64,000 bases of DNA, taken from contig CP126194.1 of NCBI GenBank assembly GCA_030272155.1, positions 496,001 to 560,000 of the forward strand, read 5' to 3'. The stretch's first letter is position 1; every line of letters begins with the position of its first letter. The DNA is from Tetradesmus obliquus. Taxonomy: Eukaryota > Chlorophyta > Chlorophyceae > Sphaeropleales > Scenedesmaceae. Under the pieces are notes generated by a model. The model was given only the letters and a program-made list of their open reading frames with translations. It was not told the origin of the DNA and did not search any database. A program made the translations under genes and the position numbers. Positions 1,632 through 63,975 of this stretch are shown here, piece after piece.

Positions 1632-4600
1632 TTACTTGGCGGGTGTGGGCACCTTGGCGCCTGTGGTGGGCAGGCCTGCAGCCACCTTGAAGGAGTCGTA
1701 GATGCCCCACTGCAGAAGAAAGCAGAAACAGCAGGCAGGCAGAACACAGCAAACAGAGCAGCAACTGTCAGTAGACGTAGCAGCAAGGAGTCCGGCATGC
1801 ATGCAAGTGAGTGGGTGGGAAGGCGAGCCTGGCTGGGTGGGCGCATGGGCGCACAGGCTGGCATGTCAAAGTGTGAAGAGAAACCCCACACACAGCATCA
1901 AGCCATACCCTCACGCATGCCAAGGCTGTGGCTGCTGAAAGCACGCATTCGTTTGTGCTGGTTTGCTGCATTGGGCTGCACAGTTGCACGACTGGGAGCA
2001 CAGCGTGTGCGAGTACGACACTGCTGCTACTGCTGCAAACCCCCCGGCCAAGCAGACAATGTTTGCTGAGGCGAGCAGTGTGTCCCACACCTCGGACACA
2101 CTGCCGCAACCCTAAGGCACAACAGTGGCCCGTGCTACTGCCGTGCACTCCTCGCCGCACCTGCAGGCCTGTGAGCATGCCGATCATGATGATGGGCAGG
2201 CCCACACCTCTACACACCACAACCAGCCTTCTGTTCAAATCCACTACACTCCATATCATGCCTCAAGCACACCACAATGCAAACAAACGCAATCGGTCCC
2301 TTGCCGCACCTGCAGGCCAGTGAGTGTGCCGATCATGATGATACGCAGGCCCACAAATCTAGACACTACAAGCAACCTATAATATAGCGCAATACAATCC
2401 ACACCACACCGCCGCACCTGCAGGCCTGTGAGTGTGCCGATCATGATGATGCGCAGGCCCAGGCCGCGCGTGAACAGCGCGTACCAGCCCATCTGCTTGA
2501 TGATGTCGCCCGCGGTGGAGCCCTTCTGCGCGTTCAGCTTTGACACCAAGTTGTCTGCCGGGTGGGACACCACGGCACAGAACACGCCCGCGATGTAGCC
2601 GGCAGCAAAGGACACGGTCAGCTGCTCGGCCTTGCTGCACTCCTCGCGCGGCTTGGGCACTGCGTACTTGTACAGCAGCTGCACCACGTTCTCAAACGCG
2701 CCTGCGAGGGGCGGAAGAAGCAGCAGACGAGGGTGGTGTGAGGCGCGATGGTGTCAGACAGGGAACGGAGAATCCGGGGCACGTGTGTGGTTGTGATGGC
2801 ATGGCAGTGTGCAGGCATGGCTGCAAGAGCTTTGGGTGTGCGTGCGAAGATACGCAATGACGCAGGAGCCGTGGAACGCCGATTATTTGCTTGACATGCT
2901 GCCACATGCCGCAACAAGCAACAACATATAAAGCATGCGCGTCTGCAGGCCAGCCAGGTCTGCTGCTCACCGAACTTCATCATGGTGTAGGGGATCTGGC
3001 GACCCCACAGCGGCACCAGCGACTTGAACAGGCTGCGGCAGCAGCAGCAGCAGCAGGAATATGTCAGGCGAGTCGCCACGCAAAGCACACTTGACGCACT
3101 GTTCCGTGCCAGGCACTGCAAACACTTGGCATCAAAGATCTGTTGCAGTGCCAGCCGCAACACACATGATGCTGCTGCTGCCACACCCCGCCGCACCGTT
3201 CACAAACTACTGCCATGCACTGCTGCAGCAGCCACAGCAGAGGCCCATCCCGGCCTGTGCCATGCGCCCAGCTTAACATGCAGCAAAGCCAGCATCAGGC
3301 TGCTGCTGAGTGTGCACTCGTGTCACTGACATACATCTGCGTGTTGAAGTCTGTTGGTAACGTTCAGTGCTAGCATCATACTCACACGCCGGCTCCCTCC
3401 TGCTGGATGAGCTTAGGCATGCCATCACTGAGGCCTTTGGCAAAGCCTGGCCGAGTCTGCACAGCAACCTGCAGCAGCAGCAGCAGGACACGGTGCAGCA
3501 GGCAGGCAACCGCATTCATCACCCCAAACAACCGTAAATGGGGTTCCCATGCACAGTTGCTGCGTCCCATGCACCAACTGTGCGGTTCAAGTGGCCTGCC
3601 ACCTCCTGTGATTGTTGATCAGTGAGTGTTGCCCAGTTTGCACGAGTGTAGTTCTGGTCCTACAACTGAATGTGCAGTCTGGTTCACAATGTGGGAGACC
3701 ACACGTGTTGCTAGCCTGTAGCGTTACAAAGGCAATGGTAGAATGTGCCACCCCATCCCAATGCAGCCACTCACTTTGGAGTGAGTCGCTGCATCTAGTT
3801 GAGCGGCACTTTCTACCAGTGTCTGCGCAACGTCACAGACTGGCACAACGTGTGGTCGTGCTGCCCACTATATATGAATGCTGACACCTGCGTGGCCCAT
3901 CTGCACCAGATCCCCAATGACCAGAAAACCCTAAAAAGGAACCTCGTCCACTGGACACTGGGCTTGTGGCTGCATGCGACGAGTGTGCCCAGTCGTGTGC
4001 TGCAAGCCATGCCCCAGGCCGCCCCTTTGGCTCCAGCAGTTCGTCTTCCACCCACGTCTCTTGCCTCCTGTTCGCATCACCTGTCACCTGCCAAAATGCC
4101 AACCACAGCACTGACGCCACGCATGCACCGCGTCGCTGCCCAACTCAACAATCACCCAGAGCACTGATGCTTACCAACATACACATGCATCCAGAGCAAC
4201 CGCCCGTGCCCTGCTGCTCTGATGCCTATCCCTTTGCTGCACTGCACGCCACACCACACATCCCAACGCACCGCCACAAGCAGCGCCGCACCTTGACTGC
4301 TTCGAAGGGTGACAGCGCCATGTCAGCAACATGCATGTGCATCCTCACACATTTGATTACGCCCTCCATGCACTGCTGCCCCTGGTGTCACTTTGCCACA
4401 CGCTGCGCCGCACCTTGACTGCCTCAAAGGGTGACAGCGCCATGTCAGCGAAGAACTCAGCGGAGGCGGAGCCGGCCAGGAAGATGAGCGTCTGGTACTT
4501 GGCCACCAGCTCCTCACCAGCCATGTCAGCGTACGTCCTGCAGCACAACACCACACACGGCACACAGAGCAGCGGCATGACGACTGTCAGTACACCTGAC

Positions 4601-6214
4601 AGCGGATGCAGCGTTCTCTGGTACCTGGCCACCATTTCCTCACCAGCCATGTCAGCATATGTCCTGGCAGTGAGTCACACAGGAGCAGCAGCAGCAGCGT
4701 GAGTACTTGGCACATAATTTCTTGCCTGACGCGTCGACACGCTGCTGGCTGCTGCATAGATGGGCAACTGCCGTTCCCTCAAGCCTGTGCATGCACTGAA
4801 TGCCCCCAACCGCAACCACGTAGCAGTCATCAGTAGCAGCAGCAGCAGCGGCGGCGCCTTGATTTCTAAAGTACTCGCGCAGCCGTGACCCTGTGCGCCT
4901 TTCAGCATCAGCCTGTGCCGATCTGCTTGAAGCGACCCCTTGAAGTACTTGTGCAGCCCGAACCCCATGCATACCACTTGCATGCAACCACAAACACAAC
5001 ATCAGCAGCAGCAGCGCCTCACTTCTTGAAGTACTCGTACAGCCCGAACTTGAACGCGCCCTGTGCGGAGTAGCCCATGAGCGTGGGCAGCCACCCCCTG
5101 AAGAGCCCCGCGGGGCCCTGCTCCTTGAGCAGGATGGAGAAGCCGCTGCTGATGCCCTTGTACTTGGCGGGGTCGGTCTGGATGTTGCACTTGACCACGT
5201 CTGCAGCGCAGCAGGGGTGCAACAGGGCAAAGAGTATGAGGAGACAGTGGTCAGATGCAAAGAGCATGCACAGACTGTACTTGGCGGGGTCGGTCTGGAT
5301 GTTGCACTTGGCCACGTCTGCAGGAGGGCGAGGCAGCAATAAAACAGTTACAAACAGCCTTGTAAAAGTGCGGTTGAATAGGCAGTGAGACCAAGTAATT
5401 GCGGGGTTGGTCTGGATGTTGCACATAATCACGTTTGCAGGAGGGTGAGGCAGCAAGAGATGCGGCAAAGGGCATGCGGCAGCCAGGCAGTAAGCGATGC
5501 AGCAAAGGGGGTTAGAAAGGTGTGCCAGGGTGGAACACAGGGAAAATAATGTTAAGACCGACAGTAAACAACATACAATTGTGCTGCAGTCTGGATGTTA
5601 TGAACATGGTGATGGCGTGGTGGTAGCGTGGACAGCATTGCATGCAGGTTGCTGTCCCAGCCAGCCTGGCTACACATGTGTGACACAAATTAATATCAGA
5701 CAGCAGTGCGCTGCACAAAGCAGCGCATGTAGCTTCGATAAGAAAGAATGCAGACGACTGAAGCACAGACATGTGGTGCGGCAAGGCCAGGACTACACAG
5801 GAGCAGCTGATTCTCCTGCGCTGACAACTGCCACCATCCTGTTACACCAAGAGCTGATCTAGGCAGCTGCATGCGATCTGCGCCCGATCACGTGCATGTT
5901 GACAGCGTAAGACACCAGTAATGCTTACCCAGGGGCGTCACAGCTGTGTGCGTTGCTCCGCATGAGACGATTCCGCCCAGTGCGCAAGTCATGTAGTACT
6001 CTTGGCTGTACATCTTGATGCCGCCCTCTGCTGGCGCTGCAGGGACCACCTTGCTGCTGTTGTTGCCTCCCATGAGTGCTGCCACGGCGTGCTTGACGCT
6101 GGGGTTGCTGGTTGCATCTTCCTGGCGTTGGTTGCCAGCGTTCATGGAGCGCACAGCGCAACCGAAGGGTGAAGCGGCGCCAAAAAGGCCAGATATCTGA
6201 GGAAACGGAGCCAT
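1632..6214 (-). CDS. Mitochondrial phosphate carrier (SLC25A3/PHT3 type)
   Basis: Imports inorganic phosphate with H+ across the mitochondrial inner membrane for ATP synthesis. Seven exons (minus): 6214-5929, 5200-5023, 4537-4414, 3468-3386, 3032-2971, 2701-2418, 1709-1632. The joined frame is 1095 nt, 364 aa, all phases compatible. The three carrier signatures are visible: TPLDVVKCNIQ at the exon 1/2 joint, SPFEAVKVAVQ at the exon 3/4 joint, and HPADNLVSKLN in exon 6. The family hallmarks LVPLWGRQIPYTMMKF and IGTLTGLQ-WGIYDSFKV are present, the latter split between exons 6 and 7. About 70 N-terminal residues before the first repeat resemble a mitochondrial presequence. Start: the ATG opening MAPFPQISGLFG. 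The gene is divergent from the Der GTPase. Nearly every intron holds decayed copies of adjacent exon ends. Confidence 0.93.
2154..2352 (-). repeat. Splice-junction echoes: phosphate carrier exon 6 donor (2 copies)
   Basis: Two copies (2154-2203 and 2304-2352) of the last ~45 nt of exon 6 plus its donor (real copy 2412-2462) lie downstream in intron 6. They would read IIMIGMLTGLQ and IIMIGTLTGLQ and each is followed by GTGCGG. The real exon continues to TGG GGC at 1709, so these copies are intronic. Confidence 0.85.
4286..4334 (-). repeat. Splice-junction echo: exon 3 donor copy
   Basis: Copy of the exon 3 end (gacagcgccatgtcag... to gactgcttcgaagg and AAG|GTGCGG) lying downstream of the true donor at 4413. 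It differs by a few substitutions. Confidence 0.75.
4617..4675 (-). repeat. Splice-junction echo: exon 3 acceptor copy
   Basis: Upstream copy of the exon 3 start (true acceptor 4539-4538). It begins after GCCAG and reads TYADMAGEEMVARYQ before decaying, so it is a partial exon copy inside intron 2. Confidence 0.8.
4861..4970 (-). repeat. Splice-junction echoes: exon 2 donor copies (2)
   Basis: Copies at about 4931-4970 and 4861-4890 of the 3' end of exon 2 (true end 5023, encoding GLYEYFKK). They retain the TTCAAG-like core with substitutions and lie downstream of the real donor. Confidence 0.65.
5273..5445 (-). repeat. Splice-junction echoes: exon 2 acceptor copies (2)
   Basis: Copies at 5273-5325 and about 5395-5445 of the intron-1 end plus exon 2 start (true acceptor at 5202-5201). 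They read DVAKCNIQTDPAKY and NVIMCNIQTNPA, each preceded by CTGCAG or TTGCAA-type sequence. They lie upstream of the real exon. Confidence 0.8.
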
Positions 6215-9970: not shown

Positions 9971-12900
9971 AGGGCCTGAGCCCGGCCTCACCCGCGACCC
10001 TACTTCAGGCTGGCTGCAGCACGCAGGGCTCACCCTGCAGCTGGTGGACACTGCAGGCTGGAAGCGGCCTAACGCAGCAGCACCCACACAGTCACCCACA
10101 GCAGCCCCACAAAAAGGACCCCCTGCAGCAGCATCCAGCCAAGACAGCAGCAGAGACAGTGATTTGGATGGTGGTAAGGCGAAGGCAGGGGCGAAAGGGG
10201 GCGTGCCGACGCCCAAGGTGCTGGCGGATGCGTCGCTGCTGCAGGCCAGGCGGGCGCTGAGCGCGGTGCATGTGGCGGTGCTGCTGCTGGACGCGCCGCG
10301 GCTGCTCACCATCGGCCAGGTGCGCTGCTGTGCTGTCCGCACACGTTTTAGCAGAAGGCGCATGAGGTGGTGTGGGGTGGCAAGCGGCAGCACGTGTTAT
10401 GAGGAGGCCCTGTGAACAGGCAGCTTCTCGGCATGGTTAGCAATACCTGGCTGCAATTCAGGCACTGGCAGCAAAAGCGACACCTCCTCTTACGCCCTCT
10501 CACTCTTGCTTTGCTGCTTGCTGGCGCCTGCTGCTGCCTGCTGCTGCCTGGCGCTGTTTTGTTGTTGCCTGCTGCTGCTGCTGCCAGGCCATCACCCGGC
10601 TGGAGCTGCAGCTGGCCGGCCTGGCCCTGCAGCAAGGCAAGGCCCTGGTCATAGGCCTCAACAAGGCAGATGCAGTGCCGGGGGGAGCAGCAGCAGCAGA
10701 GGCGCTGCGAGAGCAGGTGGCTGAGGCGCTGGAGGCTCGCTTCCTGCAGGCTGGGCAGCTGCCTGTGGTGGCGCTGAGTGCGCTGCAGGGGCAGGGCAGT
10801 GAGGCGCTGCTGGAGGCGGTGGCTGACGCGTACAGCAAGTGGAACAAGCGGTGGGTGTTGTGTGCTGTACGGTGCGGTGGTAGGTGTGGGGGTGGCTGCA
10901 GGGGCAGGGCAGTGAGGCGCTGCTGGGGGCCGTGGCTGACGCGTACAGCAAGTGGAACAAGCGGTGCGTTTGGTTTTGGTGCAGTGCTGGGGTTCAATTG
11001 TGTTATGAATGTGCTACTCCATGCAAAGAGGGACCTGGATGATGCAGCATGCAGCTGAACACGTGCGTTTGGCCACACATGATAGGTGGAACAGGAGGGG
11101 GTTGGGGTGCTGTACGGTGCGGCGCTGGGTGTGGGGGGTGATGCAGGGGCAGGGGCAGCTGCTGGAGGCGACGGCTGGCGCATACAGCAAGTGGAACAAG
11201 CGGTGGGTTGGGGCTGGGTTGGATTTGGAGTGCAGTGATGGGGTTTGATTGTGTTTTGATTGTGCCATCCCATGCAAAGAGTGAGCTGGATGATGCAGCA
11301 TGCAGCTGAACACGTGCATTTGGCCCACGCACCAATACTTTGAACAGGAGGTGGGTTTGGTGCTGTGCAATGCGGCGCTGGGTGTGGGGGTTGCTGCAGG
11401 TGCAGGGGCAGGGGCAGCTGCTGGAGGCTGTAGCTGACGCATACAGCAAGTGGAACAAGCGGTGGGTTGGGGCTGGGGTGCGGTGCTGAGGGTGGATTTG
11501 AGTGATGTGACCTCAAGCTGTGCTGGCAAATGTAGGTTGCCTTGTTTGCCACATTGCATACTTGTTGCATCAAAGCACGATGTGTGCTGTATGCCCTGCA
11601 GTGTACCCCCGCCCCTTGCAAGCATCAAGATTAGGCACACAAACACCGCATTTCTGCTCCCCCTGCTGCAGTGTGTCGTCCTACAAGCTGCAAGCCAGCC
11701 TGGCCAAGCACGTGCTGCGCTCCTGTGCCCAATAATGTCGTATCGCTGCCCTTCTTGCAGTGGACGGGCCTGCACTGGTTTACATGTGCGCACAAACACC
11801 ATACACCTTCCTCTGCTCCCCTGCCTGCAGTGTGTCGGCCTACAAGCTGCGCGCCAGCCTGGCCAAGCATGCGCTGCGCTGGCTTTGTTGAAAGCAAACA
11901 CTGCTGCCATGCGTCCCCTCTCCTTCTCCTGCAGTGTGTCTGCTGTCCCAGCAGAGGCAAACCAACACGGTGCTTCTGTCCTCTTTGCCTGCAGTGTATC
12001 TTCCCACAAGCTGCGCGCCAGCCTGGCCAAGCACGCGCTGCGCTCCTGTGTTGCTGATGCAAGCACTGCTGTCATGCCCTCTTGCTCCCCCTCTTCCGCC
12101 CTGCCTGCAGTGTCTCTGCCTACAAGCTGCGCGCCATCCTGGCCAAACATTTCGTCCGGTTTTGTGCCACTGCCAAATGTGTGCTTGCCGTCCCTTCATG
12201 CAGTGTATCTTCCCACAAGCTGCGAGCCAGCCTGGCCAAGCACGTGCTGCGCTTCTACGGCACAGGCGGCACCGCGGGCCTGCTGCAGCGCGTCAAGTGG
12301 GCCACCCAGCTCAAGCCGCGCCCGCCCACCTTTGTGCTGCTGCTGCGCGGGGCCGAGGAGGTGGATGAGGGCGGGCAGCGCTTCCTGGCCAACCTGCTGC
12401 GGCAGAGCGTGGGGCTGCAGGGCGTGCCGCTGCGGCTGTACCTGCGGTGAGTGTGCATGGGGCTGCTGGGTGTGGTGGGGCGGCTGGTGTAGCTGTTGAA
12501 GTGCGGTGTCTGTGCTACCACTATTGGGCATTGTCGCCGTTTCAGGGCTTACAGCGTTCGTGCTACACAAGCGGCTGGTGGTGGTATTCTGCGGTTGCCA
12601 GTTTGATGCTGTGTTACCCCTGTCTTTGTGGGCTGTGCATTTGCTGGCTCGGTATCTGAGGGTGGCCTGTGCACAGCTGCTTTGCAGGGTTATGTGTGCG
12701 TGTAAATTGACAAATTTATGCAGGTGAATGCACAGCTGCGCACCTTAAAGTAATGCTTGGCCAGGAGAGCCTCTGCCATACTCCCGATGCTCCAAGTGGG
12801 CTGCGATGCAGGCAAGTGCTTTGCAAAGCATGTGGCTCACCAACGTATGGCCCCCTGCCTGCGTGTGTGCTGCTGCTGGCAGGTAGCTGAGGATGACTTG

Positions 12901-14075: not shown

Positions 14076-17000
14076 TGCTGCCGCGCCCCAGCCACAGCAA
14101 CCTTCCTAGGCTCTGGCAGCAGCGCAGCGCAAAGAACAGCACCAGCCCCGCCCACACGCCCTGCAGGCCCCAGCCGGGCTGCTTGGCCCCCAGCCACATG
14201 AACAGCCACAGGCTGCTGAGCGTGACGCAGTAGGCGCGCGCAATGTAGGCCAGGTCGCGCCGCGCAAGCAGCACGCCGCTGGCTCCTGCAGGCATGGAGG
14301 TGATGCGCATTTGCCTCAGTTAGCCACCGCCAGGCCAGACAGAAGCGATCAGCCCAGTGAGTGGGTCACCGCTGGAACAACATTTGCTGCAGCATGCGCC
14401 GAATGCTGAATGAAAAATCCACCCAGACTGCCAAACAGGTGCGTATGGTGTTGCATGTTCCGCGACCGATGCAAGCGCCATGTCACACGCCCCTCACCAA
14501 CATCAGCAGCCGTCAGCAGCATGTTTGTTGATGCATCACACAACATGGCATTACATGCTCCACTCAAACTTATGCAATCAATGCAAGCAACAGCCCATCC
14601 CCACTCACCGACATCAGCAGCTGTCAGCAGCATGTTTGTTGATGCATTACATTACCTTGCATTACATGCTCCACTCAAACTGATGCAATCGATGCAAGCA
14701 ACAGCCCATCCCCACTCACCAACATCGGCGGCAGTCAGCAGCATCGCAACCAGCGCCAGCGGCGCCACGCTCGCCATGTGCTGCCACACCGCAGGGTCCC
14801 TCGTCAGCAGCTGCGGCGCCAGCAGCGGCACCCCTGTGGCCAGCAGCCCACATGCTACGCCTATCACGACAGCGATGCTCAGCAGCAGCTGCACGGTGGC
14901 GCGCTGCTGCCAGCCCGGCGCTGCTGCGGGCACGAATGCGAGTGCTGCTTGCTCCAGCGGCGTGGTGGTGAAGGCGAGTAGGTTCCACACGGAAAACACC
15001 GCCTGGGGCAGCGCAGGGCAAGGGATGCAAGAGGTGCAGTTACACAGCAGCAGAGGGCAATGCGCGCATTGCGCAACCAGGCCACAAGGTGGCAGGCGGC
15101 AACAGATGCGATACCAGCGGGTTTGTTTGCCGCATGGAGACATTGCTAGCAGCGTAAGGAGCTGAACACTTTCACTGCAGCAGTGTCGCGCCACACGCGT
15201 CATGTCCACATTTGTAATGTACACACAGTGCTGACGTATGTCGATTGGACAGATTGTTGTCCCATCGAACTTGCTGCACATGGGGTCTCATGTGGCTGCA
15301 TGGTCACCCACCTGGTGTGCTGCCAGCTGCACCCAACTCAAGCTGGCGGCAGCAGCCTGCAGCAGCATCGAAGCACACAGCAGCACACAGCAGCGCACAG
15401 CAGCAGACACGGCGTCATCATAACATGCCTGGCAGCCAGTTGAATGGTGAGAACAAGGCAGAAAAGACCAAAGTGGTGGCGCAGTGGTGCCGCACCCACA
15501 GCAAGGCTGACAGCAGCTTCAAAGCACACACATTCCTTCACAGTCCAGCGCAGAAGGTGCAGCACAGCAAGGCAAGGCAACTACCATTGCCGTATTGCAA
15601 ACAAAGCCTGCCAAACCGCCGCAGAGAGTGCAGGTATGAACCCAGGAAGCTGGCTTCAACAGCAACACTGCTACAGCGCAGCAGCACTGCATGGTGCAGC
15701 AGTTGCCTGCCCATAACTTCAACAGGACATGCTGTTGGGCAGACAGCCGTCAGCACAGCAACAAAACACATTGCCATGGTGCATACTAGCCTGCAAAAAC
15801 AACCGCAGAGAGTGCAGGCGTAAACCCAGGTAGCTGGCTTCAATGGCACCACTGCTGCAGCGCAGCAGCACTGCATGGTGCAGCAATTGCCTGCTTGTAA
15901 CTTCAACAGGACTTGATGTTGAGCAGTCTGACGTCAGCACAGCAACAAAACCCATTGCCATAATGCATAATAGCCTGCTAAAACAAACCGCAGAGAGTGC
16001 AGGTGCAAACCCATGAAGCTGGCTTCAGCGGCACCACTGCTGCAGCGCAGCAGCACTGCATGGTGCAGCAATTGCCTGCTTGTAACTTCAACAGGCCATG
16101 CTGTTGGGCAGGTAACCGACAGCAGAGCAACAAAACCCATCGAATGGTGCATACAAGCCTGCAAAAACAACCGCAGAGAGTGCAGGCATAAACCCAGGTA
16201 GCTGGCTTCAACAACACCACTGCTACAGCGCAGCAACACTGCATGGTGCAGCAATTGCCTGCCCATACCTTTAACAGGACATGATGTTGGGCCGTCAGCC
16301 GTCAGCACAGCACCAAAACCATTGCATGGTGCATACAAGCCTGCAAAAACAGCCGCAGAGAGTGCAGGTATAAACCCAGGTAGCTGGCTTCAACAACACC
16401 ACTGCTACAGTAGTAAGTAGGCAACGCGCGTTGCCTACTTACTACTGCTACAGCGCAGCAGCACTGCATGGTGCAGCAATCGCCTGCCCATAACTTCAAA
16501 AGGACATCATGTTGGGCCGTCAGCCGTCAGCACAGCAACCAAACCCATCGACAGGATGCATACTAGCCTGCAAAAACAACCGCAGAGAGTGCAGGTGTAA
16601 ACCCAGGAAGCTGGCTTCAACAGCACCATTGCTACAGCGCAGCAGCACCGCATGGTGCAGCATTTGCCTGCTTGTAACTTCAACAGGACATGCTGTTGGG
16701 CAGTCAGCTGTCAGCACAGCAACAAAACACATTGCCATGGTGCATACTAGCCTGCAAAAACAACCGCAGAGAGTGCAGGTGTTAACCCAGGTAGCTGGCT
16801 TCAATGGCACCACTGCTGCAGCGCAGCAGCACTGCCAGTTGTAGCAGTCGCCTGCCCATAACTTTAACAGCACACTACCCCGCAATTTTCCCCATAAATT
16901 ACCCTGCAACCCAAACTTCCACCCAGCACACTCCCCCGCAACTTTCCCCAAACACCCCCACTCCTGCTAGCATACTATCCTGCAAACCACCACGCATGTT

Positions 17001-20000
17001 ACCCCGCAAGATATCCCGCAAAAATCCCCTCGCACACCACCCCATCCAGCACACTACCCCTCAACTTACCCCGCCAATTACCCCGCCAATGACCCCGCAT
17101 GTTACCCCGCATGTTACTCCGCATGTTACCCCGCATGTTACGCTGCATGTTACCTCTCATGTTACCCCGTATGTTACCCCGCATGTTACCCCGCAAAATT
17201 ACCCTGCATGTTGGCCTGCATGTTAGCCCGCATGTTACCCCGCATGTTACCCCGCAAATTACCCTGCATGTTGCCCTCATATTACCCCGCATGTTACCCC
17301 GTATGTTACCCAGCCAGTTACCCCGCATGTTACCCCGCATGTTACCCCGCATGTTACCCCGCATGTTACCCCGCAAACTATCCCGCAAAATTACCCCGCA
17401 TGTTACCCCCCAGATTACCCCGCATGTTTACCCCGCAAATTACCCCGCATACATGCATAGTATCAGGCTGCCGCCGCACCTGCAGCAGGATGTAGCACAG
17501 GTTCTTGCACACGTAGGTCACGCTGAGGGGCCCCATGGTGGCGGCAAAGGCCTGCAGGTCAGGTAGCGACGGCAGCCGCAGCCCGGGGGTCAGCCCGCCA
17601 GACCTGCCAGCAGCAGCACCAGCACATGTGTTAGTGTTTACAGCAGTACCGCGCCAGCAGCCCTGCTGCATAGAGGCATGCACATTGCTTGTTGACCCCA
17701 GCTGCAAGCAAGCATGAAGGGCCGCAGGTCAGCAGGCAGGCAGTCATGTGCTCTTCGCCCCCAGCACCAGCCAGCCCAGTACAGAATAGTACTAAACACC
17801 ACGGTAGACAGGGGGATAAACCCTAAACACCACTGTAAACACCACCCTCACACTGCATGTGCTGCCAGCTCCTCACCTGCGTGCCACCAGCACCAGCACC
17901 GCACAGCCCAGCAGCTGCGTCGTCACAGTCGTAGCAGCCGCGCCCTGCAGCCCCAGCCCCAGCCAAGCCACTGCCACCAAATTGCTGCACACATTCACCG
18001 CCACAGACAGCGCCACAGCCAGCGCAGGCGTGCGGCTGTCTTGCTGTGCCAGCTGCCCCCCCTGGCACACCATTGTGAGCAGCACTGCAGGCTGCGCCAG
18101 TGCGCGGATGCGCATGTAGGAGGCGGCTAGGGGCACCAGCACTGGGTCTGCGCCTGTGCAGCCGATCAGCTGGTCTGCTGCCACCTGCGACATGCGCAGC
18201 AGGGTGGCAGGGTGTTGTGCAGTTGGTGTGAAAATTCAAGCAGTTGCATGCGCAGCAGGGCGGGAGGGTGCCACAGGAACCCAGAGTCTAATCATGAAGC
18301 GCAGCACGCTGCTGTGCAAATGGATGACCATCACTATGGCAGCGTTGGCTTGGCTGTGATCAAGCTTCGGTGTAAGGACAGCTGAACCATTGCTGCTGCT
18401 GCTGTGCAGATGCGTGGGTATAAGGGTGGCCAAGCACAGCAGCATCTGCTGAATTGAATAGCTGACGCTGCTTCACGGTCCTCCACCGTAACAGCAGCAG
18501 GTGTGTCTGCTGCTGACAGCTGCCCCTCACCTCCATGAGCAGCATCACCGCCACGCCGGACATGACAGCCAGCCCTATGGCCACGCTGAAGGTGTGCTCA
18601 GCTCGAGCGCTCTGGCCCCGCCGCAGGTCGTCACTGATCAGGCTGCGGCGAGCAGCAGCAGCAGCAGCAGCAGCAGGGCAGCAGCAGGGTTCTTCACCAA
18701 GCCTGTGATGCAAAGGCCTTGCATGGTGCTGGCAAAGGCAGGGCGACAGCCAATGCATGTAGTCACCAGAGACCCAGTCGCACCGCGCACACAGCGCTTG
18801 CTAGGGGCGACAGGTTCATGTGCATGGACTGCAGCAGGCTGTGCTTCCCACCAAAGCACTGTTGTAATCTGTGCCAACATGACCTGCCATAGGCGCATGC
18901 TTTGTGCAGTATGGGCATGTTATGCTGCCGCACACGGAACCTATACAGCCCCACAACGCACATAACTGTCTTCCCACCCTCAGGCCAACAGGCCACCTTC
19001 ATACATTACTCATTCTAACATACAATTATCTCCTGCAGCCTCATCCTCCCCCTGCTGCTCTGTCTGCACAGGGAGACCGTACCGAGTGACAATCTGTGCC
19101 AACATGACCTGCCATAGGCGCATGCTTTGTGCAGTATGTGGTATCCCCTGTACTGCAGCTGCTGCTGCTACACCTGCACTGCCTGCTGCTGCTGCTGCTG
19201 CTGCTGCTGCTAGCCTGCTCACTGCAGCCTGCAGCGCCTGCGCTGTAGCGTGGCAGGAGCGCTGCGGCTGTCTCTCGAGCAGCCTGGCATCTGGCACTAC
19301 TGCCGCTGCTGCTGCTGCTGCTGTACACAGTCAAGACCTGTATGCTGTCGGTATGTGCTACTATTCTGTGCTGCGTGGCATCTGGCACTGCTGCTGCTGC
19401 TGCTGTACCTGATTGCTGCTATCTGCAGCGCCTGGAAGATGTACTGGCAGAAGCTGAAGATGATGTTGGCGGGGCCCATGGCGGCCAGCTCCTTGGTGCC
19501 AGCACACTGCGGTGCAGCGCAGCACAGTCCAGTACAATCACAGTACAGTTACAGTGCAGTGACGTACAGTACAGTCACAGTGCAGTACTATTAAGTGCAG
19601 TGCAGATGTTGGCTGGGCCCATGGCTGCCAGCTCCTTGGTGCCGGCACACTGCGGTGCACAGCAGTGCAGTACAGTCACAGTGCAGTGCCGTATAGCGCA
19701 TTACAGCTCAGTACAGTACAGTTACAGTGCAGTACGTTTGAGTGAAGTGCAGATGTTGGCGCCCGCACACTGCGTTGCACAGCAGAGCAGTGGTCAGCAG
19801 TGCAGTACAGTATTGGTGACAGTGCAGCACATGTGAGTGGGGTTGCAGCTAGTTGCAGATGTTGGCGGGGTCCATGGCACCCGGCTCCTTGGTGCCAGCA
19901 CACTGCGGTGCACAGCAGTACAGTGGTCAGCAGTGCAATACAGGACAATCAGCCAGGACAAGCGCAGCTGTGGGTGGCAGCAGTGGTGTTCAGCAGGAGG

Positions 20001-32164: not shown

Positions 32165-32681
32165 GACCATGCAGGACCGCATCGGGCGCAACATGATTGA
32201 CGACGCAGAGGCCAAGGGCCTCATCAAGCCAGGTGACACTGATGGGCCTGCAATACTTTCAGGCCGCATCAACATGCCCATTTCAACTAAACGTCCAAAT
32301 AGCCGTAGACAGTCTGAACCGCTTGGTTTTGGAAGAGGCCAAGGGTCTCATTTTGCCAGGCGGGGGCCGCATCACCACCCGGCAGCCAGGCGCATCGCTT
32401 TGAGGTTACAGTGGCACAGTAGCAGCTGCCGTCAGCTCAGGTTCATGCGCACAGTAGCTGTGCAGCAGCGGCACGCTCAGCAGAGCGTGCACCAGGCCTG
32501 CTTCGCCTATCAGCAGCAGCAGCGCTCGCAAAGCTGATGCTGCAGCAAGCTGCTCCTGCCATCCAGCACAGCAGACTCAGCTACTGGGCCGCTGCCTCCG
32601 CTGCCACTGCAGGCCTGACCAAATATGTTGAGCCCACCAGCGGTGACGCCACCTCTCTCGCTGCGCCTGCCACTCACACAC

Positions 32682-33062: not shown

Positions 33063-33128
<66 letters not shown>

Positions 33129-35120: not shown

Positions 35121-35162
<42 letters not shown>

Positions 35163-35245
35163 GCCAGGTGGCAAAACGTCCCGACATGGCCGGCAAGCTG
35201 GTCACCGTGGTGCTGCCCAGCTTCGGCCTGCCCCTCCATGCGCTG

Positions 35246-35289
<44 letters not shown>

Positions 35290-35395
35290 GCCAGGTTGCT
35301 AAGCGCCCTGAGATGGCTGGCGAGCTTGTAACTGTGAAGTGCTGCCCAGCATCGGCACACGAGCCATGCATGGCCTGCACTTCCATGTGCTGACA

Positions 35396-35445
<50 letters not shown>

Positions 35446-45728: not shown

Positions 45729-45759
<31 letters not shown>

Positions 45760-47471
45760 CAAGCACATACAACAAATCCTGTTGCAAGTGCTGCGTGCCT
45801 GAAGCAAGGCAGGTCATCTGGCCTCAAATGGTGAAACTGCTACACTCTCCAGTCAAGCACCAGCTGCTCACGTTCAGTGGCACCTTCAATTGCGGCACAC
45901 ACCACCACACTCATCACAACCGCAATGCTATGCTGTCCTGTATGCAGGTATGCTCCCGCTGCAGTACGTGCTGCTTATGAGGCCCAGAACCCCACCCCAG
46001 AAGCCAACCTGCCATCAGCGGGTGGGGTGGCAGCACCAGCACCAGCAGGTGTCATGCCAGGAGGCATGACTCCTCCAGGAGCCCAAGCTGGTGGCAGCAG
46101 CAGTGTATTTGATGGTCCTGCAGGTGGCATGGGCGGTGGCATGGGTGGTGCACCTGGTGCTGCTGGTGGTGCTGGAGATGGTGTGTTTGCCAGCAATGGC
46201 GCTGCGTGGGGCAACCGCTATGTGCCGTCTGTGGGCAATGCAATTGGCAGCAGCGACATCTTGGTCAAGATGAGTATTGATGCACCCGAGCAGCAGGTGA
46301 GCCTGACACACGGCGCTTTAGCTTGATTTGGGTTGCTTGTATTTGGTTGACATGGACGAGTCGAGCTGTGGATGCTGAATCCAATGAAACAAGCGCAGTG
46401 CAGGCTGCATGCTGGCTGCCTGTGCTGTCAAATACAGCACCAATGCATCAATGTATGGAGCTGTTACCTGACCATGTTGTGTGTGCCTGTGCTGCTGCAA
46501 CTCCCTGCGCAGGCTGCAACCTCTGGTGACTTGCTGCGGGCATCGTTCGCCAACGCCACCCAGACCCCCATTGACCGCATCTATGTGTACCAGACGCGCA
46601 CCGTCAACTCGGCTGCAGGCCAACCTTCCACTGAGGTGAGCGGGCGCGGCAACATGCGCAGCAGCGGCGACGGCGACGGTGGCCAAAACCATGCTGCCTG
46701 CTAACCAGCGATGGGCAGCTAGCAGCGCGCCTCATGATGACAAAATGACCATTTCTGGCGCCTGCTTTGGCCATGCAGCTAAACAGTCACAGCGCAGGCT
46801 GGCAAGGCAACACTGCCTGCAGCCATCTTGCTTCTTCAAGTTGCAAGCAGTGTTGCAGAGCAATGAAGCAAACATGCGTCATGTACCGCCAGCATGCTGT
46901 GTTATCAGACCAGGCCAGCAAGCCCCTCTGCCAACAGTGCGGGCCAAAGCTCACGCCTGCGGTGCTGCTGCCCTTCTGCCCTGCCTGCCTGCCTCTGCAC
47001 CTGCAGCTCACCCTGCTGTGCAAAACAACATGTGGCTGAATCCACTGCATCAAAATATCCTCTTAGCACCGAGTTCTGCACACTGCTTGCTGCGTGCAGC
47101 TCACCCTGCTGTTCAAGAACCCCAGCGACGTGGACCGCGCCCGCCAGCAGAACGTGCTGCTGAGCATCGACGTCATGCGCGGCTTCATTGCCAATGCAGC
47201 GCAGCGCACGGGCCTAAAGATCCAGCAGGGCTCTATCCGAGTAAGCCCTGCCGTTAATGACGGCGGCGCCATGACAGCAAATGGTGCCGGCCCAATGATG
47301 CCGGGGCAGCTGCCAGGGCTTATGCCGGGTATGGGTCCAGGGTTTGGCGCAAATCCCGGCGCCCCGGCAGCAGCGGAGGCGCCGGCGGCTCCAAAGAGCG
47401 GTGCTGCAGCGGCGGCTGCGCAGTTGGCGCTGCCGCTGCTGGCAGCGCTGGCGGCCCTGGTAGCGCTTTGA
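44715..47471 (+). CDS. AGP-like secreted protein 3 with ~105-residue globular domain
   Basis: Exons 44715-44763, 44956-45177, 45556-45706, 45948-46296, 46513-46635, 47100-47471; 421 aa, in phase. The leader is MGKALSVLLLVACLCIG. The early Ala/Pro block has AALPAPAAAA repeats. Then comes a mixed segment (YVPLPKVMEEP, NNFGAFTAEP), a Gly-rich piece, and a non-repetitive domain from about SSDILVKMSIDAPEQQ through RASFANATQTPIDRIYVYQ, LTLLFKNPSDVDRA and SIDVMRGFIANAAQRTGL to QQGSIRV. Its order reads as strand-helix-strand-strand-helix-strand (inference). The C-terminus LALPLLAALAALVAL is GPI-type. One possible N-glycosylation site (NAT) lies in the domain. The same kind of domain is in gene 4 but not in genes 1-2. 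Confidence 0.85.
46995..47035 (+). repeat. Splice-junction echo: AGP-like 3 last-exon acceptor copy
   Basis: Copy of TGCAG plus CTCACCCTGCTGTNCAA (true exon start 47100), about 95 bp upstream. Confidence 0.8.
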
Positions 47472-50000
47472 AGCGTTGGGTCATGAGGATGGAGGGGAGC
47501 ATGGTAAAGTGAGGTCAACACTAGTGTTTGACCAGTCTGCAGGTTGCCATGTAGATGGCTGTTGCGTGCTGTGTGTTGGTCAAGTGACAACGCATGTGGT
47601 ATGTTGGGCACTGTTGGTGTGGGGGAGGCAAGGTTTTGAGAGCACTGCTGGCAGCAGGTTGGGGGTGAAGTGCATGTACAACAAGCAGTTTTGCGACAGC
47701 ACGACGATGGCGTCGTGTACTGAGATTGAGCAGTTGGTGCTGGAAGACCTTTTCCATTTCATTGGCTCCCTGGTTGCATCACACACTGCATGCAGCCACA
47801 CACGTCTACAGTGACAATGCACTCAGCCTAAAAACAGCAGCAACCGTCCTACAGCCTAGCAGGTTGCCGACTTTGAGCTTTGTTTGGGATGGCAGTAGGT
47901 GAAGGCATATTGCGCTGGCATACACATCATGATGTTACAGCATGTTATTTGGCTGAAAATGCGCTTTAGTGAGGCACGCATCAGCATCTGCCGCTTACCC
48001 AAACTTTGGCAGCTGATGCCAACAGTGCGAAGGACAAAGCATCTACAGCACAATGCATCAAATGCACAGTTCAGGCTTGCAGCACATGTTCTGAATGGCC
48101 AGCATGACATAACTTGATGCGCGGTTGTGTTGGCATCAAACATACGTGAACAGCAGACTGAAGCAGCACTGGCATCCACCAAAATTTAGCCAAGACGCGA
48201 GTGTTGGGCGTGGGATGAGCGGCAGCAAGCTGGGTTGATAAGTGTGATGCTTGGCACAGCACTGCTGCGGCAGCATGCAGTACTGCGCAGTACTTGGTAC
48301 CAGTATGCCACCTTAGAGTCTGCCTTGCCACATGTCCCGGCAGGCTCCCTGCCGCTCTGCATTGGCGAGAGAAGGCCACACAAGCCCTGCAGCACGCTGT
48401 GGGCCTTGGCATCATGCTCAGTCAGCACATTGTCTTCCAGCTGGACAGACGGAGACGTTTGTAGATTTGCTGATATGGCGTCACTGCTGCCGCTCGATTG
48501 GTAACAAGATGGTTCTACTCAAGTTGAGCGTTTGTGGTTTGTAAAGCAGCTAGTATCATCATCATCATGTTAACATTTAAGCCATAGCAACGTCGCCATC
48601 AGCAGCTAGTATGTCATGTGGCTGAGGTCATTGGCTTATGTGCATGCCATCGGCTGCAGTTGGGTGTCTAAACTCGGTCTCAAACAAGCTCTGATGGTGA
48701 CACCTGCTTTGATGCGAGGTTGGTCAAACTGGCACAACAATCAGGAGCAAGAGGTCTGCAGCAAGCCGGATTGTCCTAGGATGACTTTGCCACAAGCATT
48801 GTCATCATCAACATCAGTGTTACCTGCCAAACCCTTTCAATGTTGTGGCTCGCTCCAACAGAACAAGGTGCAGCACAACTTCGTCACAGCTGGGGACAGC
48901 GCTGTAGCATGTAACACCTTGCACACGCATGATACACAAGCCAAGGTTGCATGCCACAGCATGTCCATGACATCTGCGATCTGCAGGCACATCTGAAAAG
49001 ATTACATCCACCTACAAAGCGCCAGCAGTACTACTACTGACTGCTACCGGCAAGCCGTCTATCCCTAGCCTTGATAAGAAAACACAAACATCAGAGCCAT
49101 TGTGCGCCAAGGCACGATCCCTGGATATACAGATTGCACACCAGAGTCACTGCTGCTGCATGTGCAAGCCTAGTCTGACACACTCTTGTGCAGCCAACGC
49201 CGCACTGAAAGTAGTATGCACATGCACCCTGACACAACATGCTGATCACACGCCATTGCAAAGCACGCCATGGTATTGTTGGTGATCAGCAGGTTTGCTT
49301 CACCCTGCACAAAGAGGATCCTTGCTGAGCCTCATGCTTGTTATGCATTAACACTTGCAGCCCGTCCTGCTCTCTGCCATCTGTGCGCAGTGTAGGCAAA
49401 CAGTCTGCAGCATGCACGCTGATGTGCAAGCTCAGTCCCCCAAAGCGTTTGTGGCAGGCTGCATGCAGCGCACATGGCATGAGATGCACGCAATGTGCAC
49501 TGTGCTGTGGCATGAGGCTGCCTGAGTATGCCCCATGCTTGCACATTGCGTACATGCTATGCACATGTGACACTGCAGTATGCGCAGACACACACTCATT
49601 GATCGGTGCCTGCATAGATATCCTGCACCAGCTTCACTCATGCAAACTGTTTCGACTGCACAAACAACAGGCGGCACGCAACCGTGCACACCACCCCTGC
49701 ACCTGCAAGCTGTATGTACTACTGACACAACTCCAAACAAACATCTACAACCTGTACACACCTCCCGCAAGGGACAATCATCACACATTCTGCTGTCATC
49801 CACATGACACATTCCAGTAGAGCAGGCCACGCCAGCATCCAGCTGCCTTTTTGCCTCCCACGCTGCTGCACGCCATTCTCAGGTGCCGCAGCTCCCACCT
49901 CCATCCTGCATGCTCGTGCATGCTGTGTCGTGCTGCACTGCTGTCTGTCACAGCCACTCGCACAGCACACCCCGCTGCAATCAACAAGCTGCCGCATTGC
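47472..50000. other. Intergenic between convergent AGP-like genes 3 and 4
   Basis: About 2.5 kb, comparatively free of CAG runs. It holds the second copy of the dispersed 67-bp repeat. Frames at 49338-49820 and elsewhere are Cys/His-rich with no family resemblance. Confidence 0.4.
48546..48612. repeat. Dispersed ~67-bp repeat, copy 2
   Basis: The core tttaagccatagcaac-tcgccatc lies between two perfect 11-bp direct repeats (gcagctagtat, 48546-48556 and 48602-48612). Its partner is at 22261-22326. Confidence 0.72.
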
Positions 50001-50959
50001 TTACAGCAGCAGCGCGCCAGCGGCGAACAGCAGCGGCAGCAGCGCGCCAACAGCCACACTGCCAGCTCCAGAGCTCTGCCTGCGACGCTCAGCCAGCGTG
50101 CCTGCCATGCCGCCACCAGCACCGGGCGCACCTGGCAGGCCTGCAGTGGATGTTGCATTACCGCCGGCTGCTGCTGTGCCAGGCAGCGGCGTGGCTGCAC
50201 CAGGCAGGCCTGCGCCAGCAGCTGCCACTCCATTCAGGCCGCCTGTTGTATCCATCATTGTGGCAGATGGCAGCTGCCCGTTGGTGCCGCGCGCTGCTGC
50301 CTTGTAGTCTGTTGGTGTCTGCGCCTTCATGGAGTCCCCGATCATGTCCAGGCGCAGCTCTTCGATGCGGTTCTTGAGGTTGTTTTGGGTCTTCTCCTCG
50401 TTGAGGGAGCCCAGCAGGTTGGTGGCCAGCTCAGGGTTGCGGTTGGAGACGACGAAGCGTACCGTGGTGAATGCGCGGCCGTACTCGTCAGCGGAGGGCA
50501 GCACCTGCAGCGGCGGCAGCAGCAGGCGTGCATGCATTTGCTGGGGGAGAGGATGCTATGTGCTGATGAACGTCAAGGTGCGTCTGCCAGCGTTTCAAGA
50601 AGTGCAGGCAGCGTTGATTTTACTGCAGAGGAGCTCGTCAGCGTAACAGTGCCTTGTGTTTCTGCCAAATCCAGCTGCATGTGCTGCTGCCGGCTGACCG
50701 GGGCACGTGCCTCTGCACCTACCAGCCCACTGTCATAAGAACGCACATGTGCAACTGCGGTGAGCATCAAGCTGAGTCCCCTCCTGCTGCTGAATCACAA
50801 GCTGCTGTTGCTGTGCAAAGAACATTTATCCGAAGAAACTGTTCCACAGTTCTATGTGCTGCTGCTGCTGCTGCTGCAGCCTGCCTCGCCTCACCTAATA
50901 GTAGCTGATGAAGGTGTGCAAGCAGCAGTTGTGCATTAAACATTGATGCGCACAAGCTC

Positions 50960-60609: not shown

Positions 60610-63600
60610 GCTGTTGGCGTGCTGGCATGCCGCCACAAACTGCTGCAGCTGTCTCAGCTCTAGTGCGCTGCAGCGGGCCAGGTCCACCTCCACCTCCAGC
60701 CTGCTGCTGCTGCCCTGCAGACACCAATGCAGCCACGAGCAGCAGCAACAATGATCATGAGAAGTAACAACAGCCAGAACATCACGTGAGTAATGTTAGC
60801 CCACAGCGGGCCAGGTCCACCTCCACCTTCAGCCTGCTGCTGCTGCCCTGCAAGAGATGAGGAGCAGCAGCGATGTTGAGGAGCAGCAACAGCCAGAACA
60901 GCAGGTGAGTGCAGGCAAGGCGTGAGGAGTGATGTCCACCTCCAGCCTGCTGCTGCTGCTGCCCTGCAGACGGCAATGAAGCCACAAGCAGCAGCAACGA
61001 TGATCAAGAGAAGTAACAACAGCAAGAACATTACATGAGTCAATGCCAGCCCGCAACGGGCCAGGTCCACAATCACCTCCAGCCTGCTGCTGCTGCCGTG
61101 CAAGGGGTGAGGAGCAGCAGCGATGATGAGCAGAAGCCACGGCCAGAACAGCAGGTCAGTGCAGGCAAGGCGTGAGTATATTTCCACCATCACCTCCAGC
61201 CTGCTGCTGCTGCTGCCCTGCTGGCGGCAGGGGGGTCAGGAGCAGCAGCAACGATGATAAGCAGAAGCAACAAGAGAATGAACGGTTGCTGGCGACTGCC
61301 TTACGCAAGGGTCAGCACAGTTGTTATGGACACAGCAGCAGCAGGTGCAAACTCGCTGCCATGCATGTGGACATCTGTCAGCACAGCCCGCGTCCATGCC
61401 GCATCAGGATGACCTCTTCCACATGCATGGCACAGCAGTACACACACATTTGCAGCGGCAATAGCAACACAGCATCCCAGCGCTGCCTCACCCCTGCCGC
61501 CTTGCTGTGCTGCTGCAGGTGGCTGTCGCCAGCCGCCATCAGCCGGGGCAGCACCAGGCCCAGCGCAGCCTCCAGCTGTTTTTGTGGCAGCCCAGCCAGC
61601 CCGGCGGCCAGCTCCTCACGTGCTGCAGCAGGCAGCGGCTCACAGCACCGCGCAGCCTGCAGGGCATTAAATGCATTCGCAGTGAACGGTGCAGGGCAGG
61701 CGGCGGCAGAGCGTTCAGATGTAGGCATGCACATGCAAGGTTTGCACTCACACACCGCTGAGCGCTTGCCCGAGTATGCCAGGCACGTAGGGATGGGGCT
61801 GAGTCAAGCTAGCCATTGTGCTGCACCACAGCACGCGGTATGCTACTTTGCACATCAGCAAAGCAACCAAGCATATACGCATAATATATTGTGCACAGTC
61901 CAAGGTTGATTATTTCAACGCCACACACACCTGCACCCTCAGCTGCGCCAGCTGCTCGTGCAGCTCATCCAGGCAGCTGGCCAGCCTGCAGGCCGCCTCC
62001 TGCGCCGCCACGTCTGCTGCCGCGCGCGCTGCCGCCGCCTTGCGCTGCCTCAGCGCGTCCTCCTCGCCCTTGGCCTGCTTGGCCTCCTCCTGCAGCTTGG
62101 GGGTCACCAGCTTGCTCCAGCGCTCCTGGAAGTACTCCTGCAGGCAGCAATGCATGATGCAAGGCAGCAGAAGAGGTGTGACAACAAGGCGTGAAGGGGT
62201 TGACCAGGACACGCATGCGCATCTGCTCCTGGAGGTACTCCTGCAGGCCGGGCAACAAAAACACGGCATCACAAGGTTCGAGAATAAGGCATAAAGAGTT
62301 GCGTAGGACATGCATGCGAGAGGGCGATGAACGTACACGGAGCGTCACATTGTCAGTGCCATGTCACCAGTTCAGCCACAGCAAGCCACAGACAGTGCCA
62401 TGCACCCGTGCTGATTGTAAATAGTCGTATCTGCTGCACGCCAGCCTGCCAAGAAAGAGTCCACGGATCAACCAGACAAATACGCACAGCAGCCAGCCCG
62501 GCACAGCACAAACAAAACACTTTCGCACCTGCAGCACGGTGGCCATGTAGTACACATCCTCTGTGGGCTGGTTGTAGGTGCGCGCATTGTTGAACACCAG
62601 CAGCGCATCGCTGTACACCTGCACAGGTCAGAAATCAGAAAATAAGATGGTTGCAAGTCAACTGTCAGGTCGTCGCTGATTTTGAATCGATGGTGTGCAA
62701 GCTGCAGATGCAGATCATCAATCACGGAACGCAATTAATCAACACAGCAGCACCGCAGCAGCCATGTCAGCCGCACCTGTGCAGGCTCCCCGTAGCCTCC
62801 TTCCTCAGCTTTGACCTTCATGCTGCCAAAGTCCATGGGCGTCTTCACGTATGAGCAGTAGTCGCGGTACTTGGTCACGTCCACGGGCGAGTTGAAGGGG
62901 AAGGCAAACTGCGGCAGCGGCAGCAGCAGCAGCAGTGAGGGTGACAGCGCACAACCGCCTGCTGGCGCCGGTGGCAGCAGTTATCTATAGCTGAGGTCCC
63001 TTCCACAGCGCGCCAACTACCACAATAGCGCCAGCAGCAGCATCTCGCTGCCGCTGATGGCCCAGAAACTAAAGCTGTACAGCAACCAGTTCATCCGAGT
63101 GCAATTGATGGTCTTCTGGCGCACACACCTTGCTCCTGCAGCACCTTGCTCCTGCTGCTGACGCGCCATCTGCTGCTGCGGTCACAACACGTAACGTTGC
63201 ATACTCACCTTGTGCGCCATGAGCGCCTTGATCACCGCCACTGCTCGACTTCCGACCGCTACAACAGCAGCAGCATATTGCTACAGCTGCTGATACACCA
63301 CACATCATCTGTTGCATACTCACCTTGTGCGCCATGAGCGCCTTGATCACCGCCAGGCACTGCTTGGCAGCCAACCACCGCAACAGCTGCAGCACCTTGC
63401 TCCTGCTGCTGAAACATCATCTACTGCTGCGGTCACAACACGTGAGTTTACATTGCATACTCACCTTGTGCGCCATGAGCGCCTTGATCACCGCCACTGC
63501 TCGACTTCCAACCGCTACAACAGCAGCAGCAGCTTGCTACAGCTGCTGACACACCATGCATCATATGTTGCTGCGCTCACCTTGTGCGCCATGAGCGCCT

Positions 63601-63975
63601 TGATCACCGCCAGGCACTGCTTGGCAGCCAACCACCGCAACAGCAGCAGCACCTTGCTCCTGGTGCGGTCACATTACATTACGTTGCTTTGATGCTCACC
63701 TTGTGCGCCATGAGCGCTTTTATCACCGCCAGGCACTGCTTGGCAGCCACCTCAGCCAGCCTCCGCGAGCGCGCGCCAGCCAGCATGCGGCGCTCACTGG
63801 CGTCCAGCCGCGGCGCCTTGGCTGCTGCTGCTGCTGCTGCTGCGCTGCGCGGCGAGAGCTTCCAGGCAGACACAGCACGCGTCTGCAGCAGCGGCAGCAC
63901 GCGCGAGGGCACAACAAACTCGGTTAGGCTTGAGGAGCACCACAGTGGTATGACAGGAGCCATGGCTAGGAGCAT
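58813..63975 (-). CDS. GTE: BET/GTE-type bromodomain protein (single bromodomain plus NET domain)
   Basis: Reads acetylated histones and recruits transcription machinery in the nucleus. Exons (minus): 63975-63700, 62908-62777, 62618-62529, 62137-61931, 61656-61492, 60714-59997, 59612-58813; 795 aa, in phase. The bromodomain begins in exon 1 (AAKQCLAVIKALMAHK), continues FAFPFNSPVDVTKYRDYCSYVKTPMDFGSMK, and contains the acetyl-lysine asparagine in FNNARTYNQP. A coiled Ala/Gln/Glu helix follows (EEAKQAKGEEDALRQRKAAA). The NET domain has REELAAGLAGLPQKQLEAAL and then EVEVDLARCSALELRQLQQFV. The last ~500 residues are Gln/Ala/acidic low complexity with a SSSDSDDDAD patch. Start: ATG 63975 or 63963; an in-frame TAG lies just upstream, but a further 5' exon outside the window is possible. 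Confidence 0.9.
60803..61225 (-). repeat. Splice-junction echoes: BET exon 6 acceptor array (4 copies)
   Basis: Copies near 60803-60860, 60938-60975, 61055-61105 and 61180-61225 of CAG plus GSSSRLEVEVDLARC variants. The true exon starts at 60714. Spacing is ~120-135 bp, and units carry gaggagcagcagcgatgatgag-like intron sequence. Confidence 0.9.
62224..62260 (-). repeat. Splice-junction echo: BET exon 4 acceptor copy
   Basis: Copy of CTGCAG plus EYLQEQ (true exon start 62137, EYFQER), ~115 bp upstream. Confidence 0.82.
63206..63632 (-). repeat. Splice-junction echoes: BET exon 1 donor array (4 copies)
   Basis: Copies near 63579-63632, 63463-63505, 63322-63378 and 63206-63250 of the exon end (KQC)LAVIKALMAHK plus GTGAGC/GTGAGT (true donor at 63699). 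Copies alternate between a long form carrying QCLAV and a short form truncated before it, so pairs of units seem to have duplicated together. Confidence 0.92.

Follow-up and report, generated by a model that had tools for sequence, protein, structure and literature searches.

Copies of exon edges and splice signals inside introns of Tetradesmus obliquus suggest intron lengthening by local tandem duplication

In a 64,000-nucleotide stretch of the Tetradesmus obliquus genome (positions 496001–560000 of contig C4, CP126194.1; hereafter the window), introns often contain copies of the exon edges that adjoin them. Each intron-internal copy of an adjoining exon edge plus its splice signal is referred to here as an echo. 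Many introns seem to have been lengthened stepwise, by about 130 bases each time, through duplication across their own borders. An earlier note, made from the letters of the window alone, had reported such copies and attributed them to intron growth by tandem duplication. We assign a probability of roughly 0.6 to an extended form of that explanation, in which local tandem duplication across borders lengthens introns and leaves silent echoes, the exon part of which is kept by gene conversion. The genome comprises 104.66 Mb in 17 contigs. G+C is 58%, and PMC5966456 gives a GC content of 57% and a mean intron of 462 bp for T. obliquus. Gene content is green-alga-like, the bromodomain protein of the window having a EukProt relative with 74% identity across 98% of its length.

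Evidence for the echoes comes first from five homology-anchored genes: a cysteine synthase and a Der/EngA-like GTPase on the plus strand, and a carrier, a tRNA_bind-domain protein and a bromodomain protein on the minus strand. Drafts of the window genes were the output of a first gene finder and served as the basis for later naming. The cysteine synthase and the GTPase were named through matches to solved structures, and Pfam domains (MatE, tRNA_bind, longin and bromodomain) were found in four of the six drafts submitted. Structure matches for the carrier were weak; it looks like a mitochondrial phosphate carrier. The curated set consists of 22 introns from these five genes, with the uncertain first GTPase intron excluded; the echoed tRNA_bind donor at 22353, for which the following exon is not known, was also kept out of the curated counts. 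Once spliced, the exons of the curated genes share one reading frame, and proteins of relatives cross the echoed junctions without extra residues (cysteine synthase and GTPase; by eye for the bromodomain relative), as anticipated from the claim that the real exons join in phase without the echoes. Most curated donors fit GTGNG, and CTG/CAG tracts are very common window-wide, often ahead of acceptors.

Using a threshold of z > 6 over dinucleotide shuffles, donor echoes were found at 8/22 and acceptor echoes at 8/22 curated sites, that is, at 16/44 junctions and in 11/22 introns. Two of the donor echoes are short and weak (32334–32360 and 4939–4963). Reverse-complement queries gave 0/44 at z > 6, with one CTG-rich case at p = 0.02. 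Edge similarity was higher than in shuffled introns, so the proposal of the earlier note withstood this comparison. Echoes are plainest in the 1353-bp GTPase intron, where three donor copies occupy the first half and four acceptor copies the second. The exons and echoes of the plus-strand genes are as follows.

10612–10850, plus strand: Der/EngA-like GTPase exon (homology-anchored model), ending ...AYSKWNKR, donor at 10851
10895–10969, plus strand: GTPase donor echo 1, identical at 67 of its 69 exon nt
11141–11208, plus strand: GTPase donor echo 2
11394–11467, plus strand: GTPase donor echo 3
11667–11724, plus strand: GTPase acceptor echo
11826–11882, plus strand: GTPase acceptor echo
11990–12047, plus strand: GTPase acceptor echo
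12099–12149, plus strand: GTPase acceptor echo, weaker
12204–12446, plus strand: GTPase exon beyond the echo-filled 1353-bp intron
32605–32643, plus strand: cysteine synthase, acceptor echo of exon 32728–32889
32728–32889, plus strand: cysteine synthase exon
33003–33043, plus strand: cysteine synthase, donor echo of exon 32728–32889
33352–33384, plus strand: cysteine synthase, acceptor echo of exon 33460–33617
33460–33617, plus strand: cysteine synthase exon
35160–35226, plus strand: cysteine synthase, acceptor echo 1 of the last exon
35289–35350, plus strand: cysteine synthase, acceptor echo 2 of the last exon (third codon positions hold 10 of its 12 differences)
35451–35561, plus strand: cysteine synthase last exon, curated part; the model extends to 35645

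Those of the minus-strand genes are listed below.

2418–2701, minus strand: carrier (phosphate-carrier-like) exon
2303–2353, minus strand: donor echo of carrier exon 2418–2701
2153–2204, minus strand: second donor echo of carrier exon 2418–2701
4414–4537, minus strand: carrier exon with echoes at both sides
4284–4327, minus strand: donor echo of carrier exon 4414–4537
4617–4666, minus strand: acceptor echo of carrier exon 4414–4537
23339–23506, minus strand: tRNA_bind-domain protein exon
23091–23193, minus strand: donor echo of tRNA_bind exon 23339–23506, long exon part
23581–23635, minus strand: acceptor echo of tRNA_bind exon 23339–23506
22353–22480, minus strand: tRNA_bind-domain protein exon
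22596–22648, minus strand: acceptor echo 1 of tRNA_bind exon 22353–22480
22728–22777, minus strand: acceptor echo 2 of tRNA_bind exon 22353–22480
22857–22905, minus strand: acceptor echo 3 of tRNA_bind exon 22353–22480
22075–22138, minus strand: donor echo of tRNA_bind exon 22353–22480
21866–21919, minus strand: donor echo of tRNA_bind exon 22353–22480, 51/51 aligned exon nt identical
63700–63816, minus strand: bromodomain protein exon, ending ...ALMAHK, then donor
63203–63630, minus strand: four bromodomain donor echoes, exon ends at 63581, 63465, 63324 and 63209
62225–62248, minus strand: short acceptor echo of bromodomain exon 61927–62137

Echoes were then scored on a larger set of gene models. 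When trained without the curated genes, the gene finder strayed towards false exons rich in CAG; this approach was abandoned in favour of training on the five curated genes. The retrained finder was applied to the window plus 250 kb of contigs C1, C7 and C12 (314 kb) and gave 51 genes with 331 exons and 270 introns; it recovers 22/23 curated donors and 19/23 acceptors, these being the same junctions as its training set. At scorable junctions of these models, donor echoes were found in 54/258 cases and acceptor echoes in 53/249, against 0/507 with reverse-complement queries. Genes with at least three exons carry echoes in 8/11 cases in the window and in 25/40 across the 314 kb, by our own models.

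Self-comparison of the window gave 93 direct-repeat pairs less than 3 kb apart and 12 farther. Repeat clusters number 170. A predicted junction lies within 109 of them, compared with 50.7 ± 5.6 expected under random placement and 68.7 ± 4.9 when the 135 genic clusters were randomised within genes, an excess that false exons predicted within echoes could raise. The remaining clusters are intron-only (23), intergenic (35) or exonic (3). The clusters of the window self-comparison that could be placed in introns of the five curated genes span a real junction, as judged by eye. In a test that requires no gene models, based on 219 non-redundant short repeat blocks, the donor motif is located on the expected side: 24 minus-strand donors fall in the first 15 bases inside the left block edge and none at up to 25 bases from the right one, and for plus-strand donors the counts are 7 at up to 20 bases from the right edge and 1 at up to 20 bases from the left. 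Directionality of the acceptor motif in these blocks is only weak. A loose-threshold motif edge test (138/265 blocks versus 37% in an upper-bound control) was dropped as uninformative, because acceptor-like CAG is ubiquitous. That the echoes are an artefact of gene models or assembly is the least probable of all the explanations weighed; although ab initio models did drift when the curated genes were left out of training, the five anchored genes and the model-free test agree, and the reverse-complement controls were zero.

The earlier note had put exon parts at ~20–100 nt, copy spacing at ~75–255 bp and copy number at one to six, and the measured values are close to these. The exon part of an echo is 24–75 nt long (5–95% range, the upper end set by the 75-nt query), nearest echo spacing has a median of 127 bp (5–95% range 93–224 bp), and 106/108 arrays hold one to six copies, the other two holding 10 or 11. 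Direct repeats are regularly spaced and on the same strand, as tandem duplication would leave them. Their spacing peaks at 110–129 bp and again near 240 and 360, with no spacing under 70 passing the threshold; an independent run of Tandem Repeats Finder on the window reported no period of 37–100. For pairs less than 200 bp apart, median spacing is 125 bp at junctions, 124 bp in introns and 131.5 bp between genes, and from this likeness a single process is probably acting everywhere; the parent duplication process looks genome-wide. Direct repeats spaced by less than ~90 bp are nearly absent from the window and the further loci of the 314 kb, with a mode of 110–129 bp.

Intron length rises with echo number. 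The median is 265, 417, 489, 659 and 777 bp for introns with zero to four echoes (n = 184, 35, 29, 10 and 5, respectively), 1229.5 bp at five echoes (n = 4) and 852 bp at six (n = 1). The slope is 137 ± 20 bp of intron per echo (introns below 2500 bp with up to six echoes), near the 127-bp median spacing. As 22/184 echo-free introns are longer than 800 bp, echoes are not the sole route of lengthening.

Introner elements are widespread intron-associated repeats in algae and form families common to many loci. The echoes differ in being local copies: in a genome-wide search of five arrays, in which simple repeats were skipped and the best candidates alone were scored, four matched their own locus only, and the fifth (cysteine-synthase intron 7) also matched the corresponding exon border of a paralog on C1, so that copies at unrelated loci were not found for any of the five. 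A mobile, introner-like family, or the creation of new introns by tandem duplication of AGGT, is accordingly very improbable. Both ideas would fit direct repeats with splice motifs at borders, as well as an intron that lies at three nearby positions in three paralogs, but every array copies its own exon. The paralogs in question are the cysteine synthase of the window and two further genes at C1:3575071–3578128 and C5:752205–755763, which bear echoes of their own. The intron corresponding to window positions 32890–33459 lies at three positions within ~20 nt, after LVLT, EGRK and DPAKGMK (by eye), and each of the three introns has a separate junction echo, as an ongoing process would produce. 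Such positions may reflect intron sliding via echoes or separate gains at this site. Among paralog introns, that holding positions 35363–35421, upstream of the last cysteine-synthase exon, is the only one to align besides the echoes; this segment is 91.5% identical to the C1 paralog over 59 bases and 94% over 34, and exon matches are mostly 77–89% identical.

The flanks of the echoes bear on how they arise. Intron-flank homology (z > 3) between real edge and echo was found in 11/15 pairs of the youngest class (exon part at least 97% identical), with the other four falling short of that level, and in 15/37, 8/38 and 18/67 pairs of the successive identity classes. Given this homology in most of the youngest pairs, echoes appear to be born mostly as whole units. 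When two echoes are compared with each other, their exon-derived parts resemble one another more closely than their flanks do in 184/198 pairs, a contrast that is exaggerated because echoes are detected via the exon part and exon identity is local whereas flank identity is global. In the hand-picked curated arrays, 17/19 echo–echo pairs are at least 82% identical in the exon part, with 55-nt flanks that range from the shuffled level up to clear homology; detection bias can hardly produce shuffled-level flanks next to exon parts that are 85–95% identical. The longer persistence of the exon part than of the flanks is suggestive of an exchange between echo and real edge. Within the GTPase array, echo 1 matches the real edge at 67/69 exon bases with unrelated flanks, and its own flanks are similar to those of echoes 2 and 3. 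For the tRNA_bind array, a distant echo equals the real edge over 51/51 bases and is closer in its flanks to the other echo. We take this discordance of exon part and flank to reflect local conversion with the real edge as template.

The process that we favour would thus start from frequent local tandem duplication, in units of ~90–160 bp, throughout the genome. A unit straddling a border would give an intron-side copy of the exon edge and its splice signal, which would stay silent within the intron, probably since only the outer site pairs with the opposite splice site of the true exon. Repeated events would lengthen the intron by ~130 bp apiece. After birth, the flanks would diverge fast and the exon-derived part would persist, most likely through local gene conversion with the real edge: kept intact by selection, the real edge would serve as a template, and the flanks, having none, would diverge. 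The longer life of the exon part would also account for some of the surplus of repeats that span junctions. Growth by tandem duplication over borders, as first proposed, is supported by the flanks of the youngest pairs, by the ~137 bp per echo and by the separate echoes of three paralogs. Its region-wide version stands in amended form, since similarly spaced repeats occur in introns and intergenic sequence too and the echoes seem to be partly maintained.

A purely neutral by-product, in which duplications arise everywhere, those at junctions are more visible beside a conserved exon, and there is no upkeep, is unlikely. The similar spacing of intergenic and intron repeats and the homologous flanks of young pairs speak for it, as does a hand estimate in which stops (16 versus ~20 expected) and loss of GT/AG (~9% versus ~12%) match the divergence at codon positions 1 and 2. 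So do the curated real–echo pairs, of which 28 were hand-picked and 27 used for difference counts once a tRNA_bind donor copy near 23214 had been set aside for its poor alignment (the weak donor echoes at 32334–32360 and 4939–4963 are in none of the hand-picked sets); without cysteine-synthase intron 7, their differences fall 18/24/53 on codon positions 1, 2 and 3, near 1:1:2. The higher identity of exon parts than of flanks, in the echo–echo pairs with their measurement bias and in the curated arrays, counts against pure neutrality, as do the 109 junction clusters when set against the expectation for genic clusters. The copies had also been described as decayed. Stops and frameshifts do occur in them (16 in-frame stops in 3019 codons; 24/25 indels shift the frame), but the picture is not one of simple decay, exon parts being less decayed than their surroundings.

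Several observations, in addition to the detection bias above, weigh against our combination of border duplication, silence and conversion. Models beyond the five anchored genes are our own predictions. Nearby matches were obtained for random intron-interior windows (84/600) and exon windows (94/600), compared with 32/600 for intergenic ones, although the exon and intron windows lie in the same arrays and are not clean negatives. A general incongruence test had six usable pairs, four reversed and two concordant, five of them from one array. Real–echo differences fall 192/190/546 by codon position. If the echo were neutral and the real edge constrained, no more than about 1:1:2 would be expected, and conversion alone leaves the third-position excess unexplained. 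Third positions account for 74% of differences in C12 and 63% in C1, and for 54%, close to that limit, in both the window and C7. Pairs that are at least 95% identical give 5/6/40. Echo-private changes, with at least two echoes present, give 63/58/111 (p = 1.5e-5 versus uniformity); with at least three echoes they give 35/32/51, nearer uniform, multi-state columns being excluded. In the cysteine-synthase echo at 35295, 10/12 differences are at third positions, and, with the C1 paralog as outgroup, its own changes are mostly synonymous (by eye). The C12 29495 array shows many synonymous states per codon, yet one in-frame stop. Echoes with stops or indels (32; 57/46/129) and intact echoes (160; 135/144/417) are equally biased. 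The C1 paralog, considered as a template for echo 35295, accounts for just two differing codons (by eye), and the genome-wide search described above gave no paralog template for three of the other arrays. Missed coding exons, allelic diversity via unequal exchange or real use of some echoes are possible sources of the excess.

Use of the echoes, now or recently, as alternative or nested/recursive splice sites under selection is a doubtful explanation. Splice dinucleotides, said from the start to be often kept, are retained in most junction-reaching echoes (GT in 70/77, AG in 83/91; 24/192 echoes stop short of the junction). AG|GT is present at 6/7 echoed donor junctions and 1/8 echoed acceptor junctions (by eye). 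Many donor echoes have AG|GT and could be dual-specific sites that yield the same mRNA. The coding-like divergence, strongest in young pairs, the echo-private changes, and the synonymous patterns of echo 35295 and C12 29495 point the same way. On the other side, a second splice site is not enriched at the inner ends of echoes (AG at 63 donor echoes, GTG/GTA at 80 acceptor echoes), which is not the pattern of alternative exon duplication. Taken modulo 3, spacings are evenly distributed (65/64/63), which untranslated copies would be expected to show, and the more nearly uniform private changes of arrays with at least three echoes also tell against use. Frameshifts, stops (one of them in C12 29495) and free spacing argue against translated echoes. 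Coding use, considered seriously on account of the third-position bias, was ranked below duplication with conversion after the frame, stop and boundary tests.

A further idea, which we put forward tentatively, is that real and silent edges exchange short tracts, the echoes acting as a reservoir that would feed synonymous variants into the exon, allow selection on copies and let junctions slide. The three positions of the one cysteine-synthase intron would be a hint of such sliding.

Some other features of the window were recorded. Local direct repeats are absent from 35509 to 50857, unlike the remaining window, and ~15 kb at 36000–50000 hold predicted Ala/Pro/Gly-rich low-complexity genes. A 12-bp unit array at 17055–17450 (~33 copies, consensus TACCCCGCAAAT) adjoins a 184-bp tandem array at 15596–16874. 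One of the 12 distant pairs is a 64-bp repeat at 22261–22324 and 48546–48609, 86% identical and 26 kb apart. No relative of one metagenome protein turned up when viral contigs were scanned.

The earlier note knew of no named description of the pattern, and in the open-licence literature we likewise found no report of introns growing by repeated duplication over their splice junctions, with arrays of echoes left behind. One known mechanism of intron gain is tandem duplication of exonic AGGT in the genome (reviewed in PMC3443670; Drosophila cases in PMC2891723). As with the echoes, exon sequence with splice motifs is duplicated in tandem and the mRNA can remain unchanged; the gain described there places a new intron within an exon, whereas here existing borders are straddled, introns are lengthened and apparently silent junction arrays result. 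The dual-specific sites of the polyubiquitin gene UBC (PMC10809524) are also AG|GT sites in tandem arrays, but as described they delimit coding monomers and are variably spliced, whereas the echoes are partial exon edges with acceptors that are rarely AG|GT. Direct repeats at or near intron–exon borders are reported in PMC11782384, where repeats of 4–30 bp were looked for up to 80 bp from the borders and interpreted as insertion scars, in contrast to edges of 24–75 nt at ~110–150 bp and multiples. In Cryptococcus (PMC2395259), repeat expansion likewise alters intron content, in the case of one gene whose repeat holds whole introns; here partial junctions are copied, in 25/40 modelled genes. 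Intron growth is usually credited to transposons or unspecified indels. The process proposed here would make it countable, as every step leaves a border copy, and the echoes would offer a natural experiment in how splicing ignores near-perfect decoys 100–150 bp away, and in exchange between an expressed edge and its silent copies.

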